Shown here piece after piece: positions 14,557 to 20,186 of a stretch of DNA of 64,000 bases; positions within the stretch are counted from its first letter, which is position 1; each line of letters opens with the position of its first letter. The notes beneath the pieces are model-generated. The model did not search any database. It was not told the origin of the DNA and worked only from the letters and a program-made list of their open reading frames with translations. The DNA comes from Kiritimatiellota bacterium (GTDB lineage Bacteria; Verrucomicrobiota; Lentisphaeria; Oligosphaerales; JAADHN01). The stretch is from positions 1-64,000 of the forward strand of contig JAADHN010000167.1 in the NCBI GenBank assembly GCA_013151865.1, given 5' to 3'. Both the position numbers and the translations under genes were made by a program.

Positions 14557-16971
14557 TTATGAGGGACGATTGCGCACCTTGACTTCCCAGTGCCCGTCGC
14601 CCAAGTCATTCATCTCCAACACCTGGTATCCCTCGGAGCGGAAACTGACCGGGACATTCCGAATCGGTTCACCCTCGTCGAGAATGATGGCCAGGATTGC
14701 AGACGGAGGGAGTTCTTCCATCTGAAGCTTGGCCCGCACAAAGTTGAGCGGACAGGGGACGCCTTTCAGGTCGAGCACTGTTTCTCCCTCTTCTCCGCCC
14801 GTGCCTGCACTCTCGCGCTCCTGTGTGGAGGCTTCCGCCGACTCGGACGTTTCGGTTGCCGGTCCGGCCCCGGACTTGGGCGGGTGGAAATTCAGGTCCG
14901 AATCCATCGTGCCGAAGAGCACTTCGAGTTCCTCGAGCAGGCGCGCAATCTCGGTCTCGGCGTTCGCCAGGGCCGCAGTCCACCCGTGTACCTGGCCGCG
15001 CGCCCGGGCAAACAAGTCTCGGAAACTCGAGTCCACCAGCCCGGGGTCCAAAAAATGGACTTCGAAACCATGGAGGATGGCATCGGGGTCCGCGCTGTCC
15101 ATTCCCCGGGTAATGAGCAGGGCCCCGCAGGCTGCCAGGAGCGCCTGAAGGGGCGCACCGCCCTCCTCCGCCCCCGACGGATTCTCCAGGAGACGCACCG
15201 CCTCTCGAAGTCCTTCCTGGATGACTTCCACGACCCCCGCCCCACACTCGCCCGGCCCGCGCCCGGCCAGCGAAAACTCGGCTTCGTCGCCCCAGTCCCG
15301 GTAAAAGTCCGGGGCCGCGTCGTACTCGGGCGTTCGGTCGTGACGCAGAACCAATTTCCGCAGGGACTCCACCCCCAAACGCTCGACGTATTCGGCATAA
15401 GTCTCCCCGGGACGCCGGTCGCGGGCAAACTGTCGCACCATTTCCACCAGCAGATCGGGGACGACTCGCGCCGGCACACCTCCCAACAGCGTCCCGAACC
15501 GTGTGCGGCCTGCCCCACGTCGGGCCCCGGCCAGAACGTTGTATCGCGGAACCAGGCGTCCGGCTACGCGGCGGGCCGAACCGAAAAGGCCGATGTCGCC
15601 GACCGGGTGCTGACCGCAACTGTTCGGACAACCACTGACGCGAATATCTACGGCATCCAGAACATCTTCATGCAAACCGGCCTGTCCCATTGCGGTCGCA
15701 CATGCCCGGCAAAGCGGCCGGGACAGGCACAGCCCCAACTTGCACGTATCCGCCCCCGCGCAAGCCGTGAACGCCTCGAGCGGCGCCGGCCCGTCGTCGC
15801 CTCCGCCCAGCCCGATCTCCCGCAGCGCCCGGACCACCGCGGACTTCCGGGCGGTCGGAACAAAACGGATGAGCAGGTCCTGATTGCGCGTCGTCCGCAG
15901 TTCCGTTTCGTCCGACATGCTTTCCGCCACATCTCCAACGGCTTCGAGCGTATCGGCATGGAGTTCTCCAAGCGGCAACGACACCACGAGCGCCACATAC
16001 CCGGGCTGCCGTTGTTCCAGCCATCCGAATCCCGACGCGTCCCGGCAGAGGCCGGGCCCGCTCTCTGCGCAAACGCCACCAGCGTCCGGATCCGCACCGT
16101 CGAAGATCTCCACGCCGCCGAGGTCGGGCAGCCCGTCGTATGCGGGACCGGTCGAGGCCAACGCCCGGTCCACGGCTTGCCGGAACGAGGACATGCCGAT
16201 CCGCTCGACAGCGAATCTGAGCCTGGCGCGGGAGCGGTCCTTTCGGTCGCCGATCCTGTCGAAAACGCGCCGCACCGCTTCCGCAATGGGTACGCTTTGT
16301 GGCGCCGGAACAAAATCGTACAACAGTTCGCCGACCCGAGGCGCCGCACCCATTCCCCCTCCTGCATAGACGGCAAACCCGGGGACTCCATCCCGAACCA
16401 CGGCCACGAACCCGAGATCCTGGACCCCGGTAAGTGCGCAGTCCGCATCGCAACCGCTGAAGGATATTTTGTACTTGCGCGGCAAATGAAAGCTGCCGGG
16501 CAGTCGAAGCAGGAACGTTGTCACTGCGTGAGCCCAAGGGGTCACATCGAACCGCTCCTCAGGGCAAATCCCGGCATACGGACAGGCCGCGACATTGCGC
16601 ACCGTATTTCCGCCGCCGCCACGGGGACTGAGGTTCGCTTTACGAAGCCGCGAAAGGACTTCCGGGGTATCGCCAATTCGAACGTCATGGATCTGGATGT
16701 CCTGCCGAGTCGTCAAATGCAGCCGTCCGCTGCCCAGTTCCCGGCTGACAGTCGCCAGACAACGGGCTTGCCTCGGCGCCAGAACGCCGCCCGCAATCCG
16801 AACTCTGACCATGTACGTTCCCTCACGACGCTGTTCGTAGATGCCGCGGGGGACACGTTTGGCCTTGAAAAACCCGGGCGCCAAGTCCCCGTCCAAGAAA
16901 CGTTGGACGTCCCGCCGATGCTCGGCAATATCCTGGTCGGTGTCCGGTGGTAGGTCGCTCCAAATGCTCAT
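14557..16971 (-). CDS. sir: Siroheme sulfite/nitrite reductase fused to a C-terminal TusA domain
   Basis: An 804-residue protein from ATG at 16971, with AGGAG 11 bases before it. The first 560 residues are a ferredoxin-type siroheme reductase: two half-domains and 4Fe-4S/siroheme regions, RNVAACPYAGICP, KISFSGCDADCALTG, then the cluster cysteines CAGADTC (C-x5-C) and GCPNSCG (C-x3-C). A helical linker follows. Residues about 727-804 are a TusA-like fold (VLDLKGVPCPLNFVRAKLQ) with Cys740 in CPLN where CPxP is usual. The reductase would make sulfide by six-electron reduction of sulfite (nitrite is possible), and the fused sulfur carrier could take sulfur over for transfer. Its place in a homocysteine operon with HcyS argues for sulfite. 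There is no flavoprotein subunit, so ferredoxin is the likely donor. Confidence 0.85.
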   Translation of the reverse strand: MSIWSDLPPDTDQDIAEHRRDVQRFLDGDLAPGFFKAKRVPRGIYEQRREGTYMVRVRIAGGVLAPRQARCLATVSRELGSGRLHLTTRQDIQIHDVRIGDTPEVLSRLRKANLSPRGGGGNTVRNVAACPYAGICPEERFDVTPWAHAVTTFLLRLPGSFHLPRKYKISFSGCDADCALTGVQDLGFVAVVRDGVPGFAVYAGGGMGAAPRVGELLYDFVPAPQSVPIAEAVRRVFDRIGDRKDRSRARLRFAVERIGMSSFRQAVDRALASTGPAYDGLPDLGGVEIFDGADPDAGGVCAESGPGLCRDASGFGWLEQRQPGYVALVVSLPLGELHADTLEAVGDVAESMSDETELRTTRNQDLLIRFVPTARKSAVVRALREIGLGGGDDGPAPLEAFTACAGADTCKLGLCLSRPLCRACATAMGQAGLHEDVLDAVDIRVSGCPNSCGQHPVGDIGLFGSARRVAGRLVPRYNVLAGARRGAGRTRFGTLLGGVPARVVPDLLVEMVRQFARDRRPGETYAEYVERLGVESLRKLVLRHDRTPEYDAAPDFYRDWGDEAEFSLAGRGPGECGAGVVEVIQEGLREAVRLLENPSGAEEGGAPLQALLAACGALLITRGMDSADPDAILHGFEVHFLDPGLVDSSFRDLFARARGQVHGWTAALANAETEIARLLEELEVLFGTMDSDLNFHPPKSGAGPATETSESAEASTQERESAGTGGEEGETVLDLKGVPCPLNFVRAKLQMEELPPSAILAIILDEGEPIRNVPVSFRSEGYQVLEMNDLGDGHWEVKVRNRPS

Positions 16972-16999
16972 ATGGTTCTCAAGCTCCTGTGACTCCGAG

Positions 17000-17407
17000 T
17001 CAATCAAGCACCTCGACCGGTATAGCGGACGGCTTCCCGGCGTCCACACGGTACGCGCATAGGGCCGCCCTGTCCGGTCCGGGACGCAAGGATAGAATGA
17101 CGTACGCCACGCCGGGCGTATACGCCAAACGCAGATCCTCGTCCGACATTCGGGCCGGAGAGGCCGGGTGACTGTGCCAAATGCCGATTACTTGCAACCC
17201 GCACCGGCGGATTTCCTTGACCGCCCGAAACTGTTCCTCCGGTCGCATACTGTAGTGGTCTGGAGAGGCGTCCGCGTTGGTCATGGGATAGAACTTCTGC
17301 ACGATCCCGTCACGTCCGGCCAGCAAGCCGCACGCTTCGTTTGGGGCATGGGTCCGAGCTGCGTCCAAGAGTTGCTCGAACACCTTTCTCGGAATGGAAA
17401 CACGCAT
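17000..17407 (-). CDS. hcyD: JAMM metalloprotease for the sulfur carrier (HcyD-like)
   Basis: A 135-residue Mov34/MPN (JAB1) zinc protease. ATG at 17407 fits the usual start of the fold (MRVSIPRKVFEQLLDAA). The JAMM site is complete: Glu24 in NEACGLLAG, then HSHPASPARMSDED giving His78, His80, Ser88 and Asp91. Bacterial relatives (Mec+, QbsD, HcyD) cut sulfur-carrier or ubiquitin-like proteins just after the Gly-Gly. It ends 29 bases before sir-tusA and follows the E1-like gene after a 293-base gap in which I see no gene. The job inferred here is to remove the tail of the HcyS-like protein encoded two genes upstream, freeing its glycines for activation. The upstream Shine-Dalgarno is weak. 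Confidence 0.85.
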   Translation of the reverse strand: MRVSIPRKVFEQLLDAARTHAPNEACGLLAGRDGIVQKFYPMTNADASPDHYSMRPEEQFRAVKEIRRCGLQVIGIWHSHPASPARMSDEDLRLAYTPGVAYVILSLRPGPDRAALCAYRVDAGKPSAIPVEVLD

Positions 17408-17700: not shown

Positions 17701-18561
17701 TCAGGCAAGACCGTGCACGTCTCGCTTCGCGGCCCCCACCGCACAGGCCGCACCGTTCGGACGCCCCGCTTCGGCAGTGTCGAGGTGCGTGATGGTCGGC
17801 TCGGGACCGCACAGGGGGCACCGGGGGTTTCGCCGAACGCGCACGGTCCGGAACCCCATTCGCAACACATCACACACCAACAAGCGGTTCGTCAGCAGGT
17901 CGCCTGCCCCGATCAAGGCCTTCAACGCTTCCGCGGCCTGGATCACGCCCAGCAACCCAGCCACGGCCCCCAGGACACCCGCTTCGGAACAGGTCGGCAC
18001 CGCCCCGACCGGCGGGGGCTCGTGGAAAACACACCGGTAGCAGGCGGTCTCCCCGGGGAAGACCGTCAACGCTTGTCCCTCAAACCGCAGGATCCCGGCA
18101 TGGCAATACGGTTTTCCCCCGAAATGGCAGGCGTCCGCGATCAGAAACTTCGAGGCGAAGCTGTCCGTTCCGTCCAAAACGAAATCGTACCCCTCCAGTA
18201 TGCCCGCCGCATTGTCGGGACGGAGCCGGTCGGGGTAGGTCACCACCTGCACATCCGGATTCAGTTCCCGGAGCTTCTCCGCAGCGGACTCCACCTTCGG
18301 ACGGCCCACGTCGGGCGTAAAATGCAGGACCTGCCGCTGCAGGTTGCTCAGGTCCACCTCGTCCGCATCCATCAGACCCAATGTTCCGACCCCGGCCGCC
18401 GCCAGATAGAGCGCCGCCGGCGCCCCCAAACCGCCCACCCCCACAACCAGGACCCGGGAACGCAACAGCTTCTTCTGTCCCGCCCCGCCGATGCCGGGCA
18501 GAAGGATCTGCCGCGAGTACCGCTCGATCATCTCATTGCTCAAAACCAATGGCGCAGTCAT
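17701..18561 (-). CDS. hcyF: E1-like (ThiF/MoeB) sulfur-carrier adenylyltransferase (HcyF-like)
   Basis: A 286-residue ThiF/MoeB-family enzyme. ATG at 18561 lies one base after the hcyS stop, and its ribosome site AGAGGAGG is inside the last codons of hcyS, so translation is probably coupled. Motifs: MIERYSRQILLPGIG at the start, nucleotide-binding GVGGLG (41-46), DADEVDLSNLQRQ with the adenylation residues, DGTDSFASKFL, GVLGAVAGLLG, the conserved Cys191 in VPTCSEAG, and two zinc pairs (Cys174/177 in CYRC, Cys248/251 in CPLC). It would adenylate the C-terminal Gly of HcyS with ATP, so that sulfide can form the thiocarboxylate. About 35 residues beyond the last zinc pair are of unclear value. 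No rhodanese domain is attached. Confidence 0.87.
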   Translation of the reverse strand: MTAPLVLSNEMIERYSRQILLPGIGGAGQKKLLRSRVLVVGVGGLGAPAALYLAAAGVGTLGLMDADEVDLSNLQRQVLHFTPDVGRPKVESAAEKLRELNPDVQVVTYPDRLRPDNAAGILEGYDFVLDGTDSFASKFLIADACHFGGKPYCHAGILRFEGQALTVFPGETACYRCVFHEPPPVGAVPTCSEAGVLGAVAGLLGVIQAAEALKALIGAGDLLTNRLLVCDVLRMGFRTVRVRRNPRCPLCGPEPTITHLDTAEAGRPNGAACAVGAAKRDVHGLA

Positions 18562-18562
18562 G

Positions 18563-18859
18563 TCAAAACGACGCCTCCTCTGCATCATGCCACTCTTTCG
18601 ACTCCGGACGCCGGCGGAGGGCGACGGCGCTCCCAAGATCGCCCGCCGTTCGATCCGCACCGCCGCCCATCAGGTAGATGAACTCGACCCGGTCCCCTTC
18701 CTGGAGTTTGCGCTCCCGAAATTCGATCCGAAAGAGGATGTGGTCGTTCAACTCGACCGAGACCATCTCGGGCCGTTCGACTTCTTCACTCTCCAGCAAG
18801 TCTTGGACGGTCAAACCGTCTGGCTTCTCTTTAACAATCCCGTTGATTTGGATTTGCAT
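18563..18859 (-). CDS. hcyS: Ubiquitin-fold sulfur carrier with C-terminal tail (HcyS-like)
   Basis: A 98-residue protein with a ThiS/MoaD beta-grasp fold in residues 1-67: MQIQINGIVKEKP, LTVQDLLE, VSVELNDHILFR, LQEGDRVEFIYLMGGG. The functional glycines of such carriers lie at the very C-terminus, but here GGG (65-67) is followed by 31 more residues (ADRTAGDLGSAVALRRRP...EEASF). Carriers with anything after Gly-Gly need a protease first, and a JAMM protease is in the operon. In the Wolinella homocysteine pathway the carrier is likewise made with an extension removed by HcyD, as I recall a single residue; this tail is far longer. The tail codons also contain the ribosome site of hcyF. Starts 73 bases after metY. 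Confidence 0.85.
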   Translation of the reverse strand: MQIQINGIVKEKPDGLTVQDLLESEEVERPEMVSVELNDHILFRIEFRERKLQEGDRVEFIYLMGGGADRTAGDLGSAVALRRRPESKEWHDAEEASF

Positions 18860-18932: not shown

Positions 18933-20186
18933 TCAGAGCACTTCGAGCGCCTGCTCGAAGTCGGACTTCAAATCTTCGAACGCCTCGATTCCGACGGACA
19001 CCCTCACCAAGTCTTCGGAAACCCCCATCGCTTCGGCTCGCTCGGGGGACGCCTCCCGACAAAAAGTGGACGCGGGATGAATCACCAACGTCCGGACGTC
19101 GCCCAGATTGGCCAAACGTTTGGCGAGTCGCAACCGATTCATGAAGCGAAAACAACGCTCCTGCGACCCCAGGCGCAACGTGAGCAATCCACCGTAACGG
19201 TCGCCAAATTGGCGTCGCGCGGTCTCATGGTCCGGATGCGTGCCCAGGCCGGGGTACCGCACTTCCGCAACCTTTGGGTGAGCCGACAGGGTCTGGGCCA
19301 GGGCAAGCGCGTTGCGACAGTGCTGGTCCATGCGGAGTGCAAGCGTTTCGAGACCCAACGTGAAAAGAAAAGCATGAAACGGCGCAAGACACCCTCCAAA
19401 ATGCTGCTGAATCCGCAGCCGCAGAAATGCCGCGAACGCCAGCCGACGATAGCGCTCCAGAAACTCGGGAGGGATTTCCACACGGCCGGCAGTCCAGTCG
19501 TACACTCCCGTGTCCACCACGATCCCCCCCAGCCCCGCGCCGTGCCCGCCCACGTACTTGGTTAAAGAATGAATCACCAGGCTCGCACCCAACTCGCCGG
19601 GACGTATCAAAGCGGGCGTCGCGGCCGTGGCATCCACCGCGAGCGGAACGCCGTGCACGGCCGCCAACTCGGCAAGCGCCCCAATGTCCGGCACATCCAG
19701 TTTAGGGTTCCCGATCGCTTCCACGAAAAGCAGACGCGTCCGGTCGGTGATGGCACGACGCCACCGATCCGGGTCCGTGGGCTCGACAAAACGGGTTCGA
19801 ACGCCATACCGGCCAAAGAGTTCCTCCAGAAGCACGAACGTCCCGCCGAAGAGGCTGGTGCCGGCAACAATCTCGTCGCCCGGGGCCGCCACGGCCAAAA
19901 CGATCGCCGCGATCGCCGCCATCCCCGAGGCGGTCGTCACGCTTGCCACAGAATGCTCGATTTCCGCAAAGTGGCGCTCGAACAGCTCGATCGTCGGGTT
20001 CTGAATTCGGGCGTACACGTAGCCGGGACGTTCCCCGGAAAACGCGGCAGCCAATTCTTCCGAAGAATCGTAACCGAACGAAACACTCAGGTTCACCGGA
20101 AGCGCCGTGCCGCCGGCGGCGGGGTCGTACGGCACGACCGGGTGAACCAATTCGGTGGCCAAAGACCATTTTCGGACCGCCTGCAT
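18933..20186 (-). CDS. metY: O-acetylhomoserine sulfhydrylase-type PLP enzyme (MetY)
   Basis: A 417-residue Cys/Met-metabolism PLP enzyme, first gene of the operon, with AAGGAG eight bases before ATG. Fold marks: YARIQNPTIELFER, TASGMAAIAA, the SHSLTK-type strand VIHSLTKYVGGHG with PLP Lys210, and the C-terminal HPASTFCREASPE and VRVSVGIE. The SLTK-GGHG phrase and the substrate loop fit O-acetyl/succinyl-homoserine sulfhydrylases better than cystathionine lyases, and the setting (HcyS, HcyF, HcyD, Sir) points to use of a protein thiocarboxylate rather than free sulfide to make homocysteine. No homoserine acyltransferase or methionine synthase is in the window. Transcribed from a good promoter about 155 bases upstream. 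Confidence 0.85.
   Translation of the reverse strand: MQAVRKWSLATELVHPVVPYDPAAGGTALPVNLSVSFGYDSSEELAAAFSGERPGYVYARIQNPTIELFERHFAEIEHSVASVTTASGMAAIAAIVLAVAAPGDEIVAGTSLFGGTFVLLEELFGRYGVRTRFVEPTDPDRWRRAITDRTRLLFVEAIGNPKLDVPDIGALAELAAVHGVPLAVDATAATPALIRPGELGASLVIHSLTKYVGGHGAGLGGIVVDTGVYDWTAGRVEIPPEFLERYRRLAFAAFLRLRIQQHFGGCLAPFHAFLFTLGLETLALRMDQHCRNALALAQTLSAHPKVAEVRYPGLGTHPDHETARRQFGDRYGGLLTLRLGSQERCFRFMNRLRLAKRLANLGDVRTLVIHPASTFCREASPERAEAMGVSEDLVRVSVGIEAFEDLKSDFEQALEVL

Follow-up and report, generated by a model that had tools for sequence, protein, structure and literature searches.

HcyS with 31 residues past its terminal glycines: probably a long variant in a family of sulfur carriers with blocked C-termini

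We have analysed a gene for a HcyS-type sulfur carrier in a 64,000-nucleotide stretch of bacterial DNA (the window), and observed that its reading frame continues for 31 codons beyond the Gly-Gly-Gly at which the carrier fold ends. A blocked C-terminus proved to be the rule in the HcyS family, and the length and sequence of the blocking segment vary freely; we therefore regard the tail as tolerated read-through to the next gene and not as a conserved part of the protein. The HcyS of the window is probably a long variant of a known pro-carrier, with a disposable tail. Our preferred reading, to which we give a probability of roughly 0.68, is that the peptidase HcyD removes anything that follows Gly-Gly, and that the tail persists as disposable read-through which preserves translational coupling between hcyS and hcyF.

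The hcyS gene (18563-18859; 98 amino acids, ATG start) lies on the minus strand, as do the neighbours described here. Upstream of it is metY (18933-20186), which encodes an O-acetylhomoserine sulfhydrylase-type PLP enzyme (PF01053, 3e-109; TIGR01326, 2e-122, a score below the curated cut-off of the latter profile). Downstream are hcyF (17701-18561), for an E1-like adenylating enzyme of the ThiF/MoeB kind (ThiF PF00899, 5e-82), then hcyD (17000-17407), for a JAMM/JAB metallopeptidase that retains its E, HSH, S and D residues (motif columns EHHSD; Prok-JAB PF14464, 7e-24), and then a gene for a sulfite/nitrite-reductase-type protein (14557-16974; NIR_SIR, 7e-53). The last of these proteins also carries a C-terminal TusA domain (residues 733-801, 2e-15). 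The carrier is thus a ThiS-like beta-grasp protein with a terminal Gly-Gly and at least one residue beyond it, 31 in this case, and the HcyF, HcyD, MetY-type and sulfite reductase genes are all nearby on the same strand. These features support the assignment of the gene to HcyS in a HcyS/HcyF/HcyD/MetY/Sir operon, which we take to be the methionine system of the Wolinella type. The names HcyS, HcyF and HcyD, first given in a sequence-only reading of this DNA, are borne out by the gene content and by the catalytic residues of HcyD. A role for the carrier as the ThiS of thiamine synthesis was considered and rejected, its neighbours being methionine-type genes; the same genome has a separate ThiS gene (G000:C91:61308-61511), which is followed by a ThiG-like start.

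The match of the ThiS/beta-grasp profiles (PF02597, 5e-12; TIGR01683, 8e-16) covers exactly residues 3-67 of HcyS. The core (residues 1-67; 18659-18859) ends in FIYLMGGG, in which the three glycines are residues 65-67 (nt 18667-18659). AlphaFold gave a confident beta-grasp for residues 1-60 (pLDDT 93-97), with PDB 3cwi as the top fold match of the core and 3cwi/2k5p as the nearest solved structures, and residues 71-98 were predicted to be disordered (pLDDT ~48-58). The tail itself, ADRTAGDLGSAVALRRRPESKEWHDAEEASF (18658-18566), is charged and rich in Arg, Glu and Ala, and its frame is closed by a TGA (18563-18565) located 1 base upstream of the hcyF ATG (18561-18559). The open reading frame and the profile matches agree with the earlier statement that the fold ends at residues 65-67 and that 31 codons follow without a stop; the interval then given for the tail, 18563-18655, does contain a tail, less its first codon, Ala68.

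By itself, an open frame of 31 codons is unremarkable, since 43% of composition shuffles are likewise open, and the hcyF frame is also open across this stretch. Codon usage of the tail in the HcyS frame, scored with five genes of the window as the reference, resembled that of genes weakly (LLR +2.6, at the 31st percentile among windows from real genes); the value exceeds those of all same-strand off-frame windows, and the antisense value was +5.4. A search of the genome for a second copy of the tail DNA returned only the stretch itself, which is therefore not a dispersed repeat, and no unusual RNA or DNA fold was detected in it (z 0.46). We rejected the idea that the tail arose from the core of hcyS by partial duplication, the resemblance being no better than that of shuffles (P 0.37).

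To place the tail in the context of the family, we compared 94 different HcyS genes, all complete and drawn from many phyla, to which six more were later added (100 in total). Not one of the 94, and none of the further six, ends at Gly-Gly-Gly without an extension. Among the 94, the number of residues past Gly-Gly-Gly is one in 29 proteins, two in 23, three to six in 28 and at least eight in 14, and tails of ten or more residues make up 14%; the median over the 100 homologues is 2 residues. Lengths range from 1 to 104 residues, with 31 (the window), 51 and 104 among the long ones, and there is in addition one in-frame HcyS-HcyF fusion. In contrast, 39 of 48 ThiS-like proteins stop exactly at Gly-Gly, and the other 9 carry one or two residues (Fisher 1e-26 for 94 against 48 proteins). 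A HcyD match is present in the same locus for 68 of the 94 HcyS genes and in most of the loci added later, and the catalytic columns EHHSD are complete in 73 of 79 HcyD matches. The extension is not forced by gene overlap, because even those ThiS genes that run into or directly adjoin the gene that follows (L006, L014, L016) stop at Gly; HcyS thus seems to need some residue as a block, but not a particular one. One HcyS homologue, with the tail NACIF, was found on a 548-kb viral contig (L106:5001-5219; IMGVR_UViG_3300033145_003233), where there is no HcyF or HcyD nearby and the gene sits in an array of short paralogues ending in NRxEILDL.

The family rule of a blocked C-terminus supports the proposal, made in the sequence-only reading, that the carrier is a pro-protein comparable to ubiquitin; none of the 100 homologues ends at Gly-Gly. 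What stands of that proposal is the universal extension, together with intact catalytic residues in HcyD that would permit cleavage. The further idea that this long tail is kept as a conserved element was not sustained, as relatives have tails of 1 to 104 residues that are unrelated in sequence: when homologues are compared for tail length and conservation, the presence of an extension is universal, but its length and its sequence vary.

We looked among the HcyS relatives for a sequence similar to this tail and found none; the tails share no sequence with each other. Relatives from the same order have HcyS proteins that end in GGGSR or GGGA, and a third has 104 residues; the tails of other relatives, of 14, 21 and 25 residues, are all mutually unrelated. 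For these reasons the long tail as a conserved element was dropped as a candidate. The 104-residue tail (L004:1190-1506; G004:C142:48611-48927) is an inserted, mobile-element-like dispersed repeat: a palindromic sequence with arms of 37 nt, present in dozens of full or partial copies in that genome, lies between the hcyS Gly-Gly-Gly and hcyF and is open throughout. In the HcyS-HcyF fusion, which rests on a single genome (L058:7001-8026, equal to G180/G429:C105), the carrier is joined to a full HcyF through GGG-Ser-Met in a protein of 342 amino acids, with HcyD downstream; since the fusion keeps the MGGG frame, a homopolymer slip would have to destroy the MGGG motif. Between the homologues L142 and L141, a TAA/TAC difference lengthens the tail after MGGG from 18 to 51 residues. 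The DNA past GGG in this pair is ~92% alike, whereas the third positions of the core codons are 62% alike, so that at least once this stretch seems to be constrained for another reason. The post-Gly DNA of L199 (3201-3330) and L200 (from G334 and G206), which represent two genera, is ~92% alike over 60 nt, although the third positions of codons in the hcyS core agree at 62%; the stretch is not a dispersed repeat, and L199 has no following hcyF.

These comparisons bear on the possibility, which we consider unlikely although it is the best of the alternatives, that the tail does some work itself in this organism, be it as a degron, as a segment on which HcyD or HcyF docks, or as a tether by which HcyS stays inactive or localised until it is processed. 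The gene-like codon usage and the charged, Arg/Glu/Ala-rich composition would suit such a job, and the presence of at least one blocking residue in every HcyS implies that some extension is selected. Yet, no relative has a similar tail, this one is predicted to be disordered, one or two residues suffice in relatives of the same order, and the 104-residue case is a mobile-element-like repeat.

At their junction, hcyS and hcyF usually share a few bases, and in about 60 loci the hcyF start lies 1-9 nt past the Gly codons. Of 62 such near-hcyF loci, 49 have GGAG or GAGG inside the Gly codons, as opposed to 12 of 24 loci in which hcyF is far (p 0.016), and GGA is in excess in the Gly codons of the near set relative to the far set (p 5e-4). 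In most relatives, hcyF thus has its ribosome site in the Gly-Gly-Gly codons themselves, and it follows that such sharing is usual and that the window has a displaced version of it. Here, the Gly codons are GGC GGC GGT and hold no ribosome site, hcyF starts only after a further 97 bases, and the likely ribosome-binding site is the AGGAGG at 18574-18579, within the last tail codons (GAG GAG GCG) and 12 nt before the ATG, a spacing longer than usual. It is the only perfect AGGAGG near hcyF, in keeping with the suggestion, made from the sequence alone, that the last tail codons serve both genes; the sharing is, however, not special to the tail. Among far-hcyF loci, the HcyS stop falls beside the hcyF start in 9 of 23, compared with 3 of 46 control frames (p 0.0015, in a post hoc comparison of 23 loci with start codons picked by rule and that of the window set by hand), and of the 9 tails with at least ten residues, 7 end beside the hcyF start. 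We infer from these positions that selection may keep translation of hcyS and hcyF coupled.

A sequence error or a very recent loss of a stop, the tail having been an ordinary two-residue GGG-AD, is improbable, somewhat more so than a job for the tail. A single indel that hides a short tail is ruled out, because neither of the other frames has a stop soon after GGG. A single substitution could hide one, as the CGA of tail codon 3 (18652-18650) differs from TGA by one base; a substitution at 18652 would produce an ordinary HcyS, the assembly is in draft form with 176 contigs, and a change of stop (TAA/TAC) separates the L142 and L141 tails. However, a stop at codon 3 would still leave ~90 bases before hcyF, long tails arise independently in other genomes, and the present stop adjoins the start of hcyF, which is also true of most other long tails. 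Still less probable is that the stretch encodes an N-terminal extension of HcyF from a GTG at 18660, with the HcyS tail as a mere overlapping frame: the hcyF frame is open from 18660 across the whole stretch and hcyS/hcyF overlap is the rule in relatives, but the codon score of that frame is about 0, below the HcyS frame, the predicted peptide is rich in Arg, relatives usually start HcyF some seven codons ahead of the ERYSR motif, the GTG has a poor ribosome site while AGGAGG precedes the ATG, and HcyS would carry the tail in any event, its frame having no earlier stop.

We return to the reading in which the tail is disposable read-through. HcyS would be made as a blocked precursor; HcyD would, as its intact catalytic residues and the universal block suggest, cut past Gly-Gly(-Gly) and discard the remainder. 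HcyF would then adenylate the glycine so exposed, sulfide from the sulfite reductase would convert HcyS to the thiocarboxylate, MetY would join this to activated homoserine, and HcyD would free homocysteine; this order of steps is likewise the one we infer. Because HcyD would remove any tail, the length and sequence of the tail would be free to drift; and since the frame is open to the hcyF start, ribosomes that complete HcyS would still terminate next to it. The 31 residues would then be a disposable bridge across the 97-base gap to hcyF.

In the Wolinella pathway, the carrier is made with an Ala after Gly-Gly, which is taken off by HcyD. That system has the same operon content as the window, which differs from it in having 31 residues instead of one and a displaced hcyF with its ribosome site within the tail. 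In thioquinolobactin biosynthesis, a JAMM peptidase, QbsD, removes a C-terminal Cys-Phe from the carrier QbsE; this case differs in its siderophore pathway, its two residues and its operon. Ubiquitin is also made as a precursor or fusion that requires trimming by a peptidase, and the window has the corresponding C-terminal extension past Gly-Gly and a peptidase gene, which may work alike. The best sequence and fold match to the window's HcyS, the 'ThiS' of Geobacter metallireducens (PDB 3cwi/2k5p), has a one-residue extension and is annotated as a thiamine biosynthesis protein; its sequence ends in MGGGK, which indicates a HcyS-type carrier. The operon matches the gene content of neighbourhood type 4e of Iyer et al. 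2006 (PMC1779556), namely ThiS/MoaD-like, JAB, E1-like, SirA/TusA, sulfite reductase and O-acetylhomoserine sulfhydrylase; the portions of that paper available to us propose that the JAB protein could free fused ThiS/MoaD, and make no mention of a universal extension, its lengths or the sharing of codons. Elsewhere, Rpn11, a JAMM protein, cuts a nine-residue extension from the Caldiarchaeum archaeal ubiquitin precursor exactly after Gly-Gly (PMC6043591), although that protein is a modifier and not a sulfur carrier, and its extension is short and fixed. The Deinococcus JAMM peptidase DRJAMM frees the sulfur carrier from a C-terminal MoaD-MoaE fusion (PMC8832034), which is comparable to the HcyS-HcyF fusion of L058 but belongs to molybdopterin synthase.

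The ThiS proteins showed a pattern of their own. Extra residues were found on ThiS in about 12 of 47 HcyS-positive genomes, one of them a ThiS-ThiG fusion, and in 1 of 57 HcyS-negative genomes; an earlier count gave 11 of 44 and 1 of 47 (Fisher p 0.0014, with one ThiS taken per genome and lineages unevenly sampled). For one order, found by way of a Eubacterium genome, the figures were 2 of 5 and 0 of 10. The proteins listed (G000:C91:61308-61511, L127, L020, L188, L158, L184, L255, L197, L223, L262, L320, L283) have 1-2 residues past Gly-Gly(-Gly) or are fused to ThiG, and the ThiS of the window's own genome ends in GGGRA. In the exceptional genome, G002, with a tailed ThiS, HcyS and HcyD were not found in an assembly that is 86% complete. 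Since tailed ThiS is met almost exclusively in HcyS-positive genomes, HcyD may also mature ThiS; we offer this as a lead only.

Taken jointly, that HcyS is always blocked until HcyD is present, that the zone past Gly-Gly tolerates junction changes, mobile repeats and, in L058, even fusion of HcyS to its own E1, and that HcyD also matures ThiS is a tentative picture, to which we give somewhat less than even odds. If it is true, no E1-like enzyme would charge HcyS until HcyD, which is also needed for the release of homocysteine, is present, and maturation of ThiS by HcyD would explain why tailed ThiS proteins are nearly confined to HcyS-positive genomes. In this family, the codons for a protein's functional Gly-Gly-Gly also provide the following gene with its ribosome site, and tails of 1 to 104 residues and the carrier-E1 fusion provide natural test substrates. 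A bacterial metabolic sulfur carrier would thus follow the precursor logic of ubiquitin, with an extension that is universal and a content that is free.
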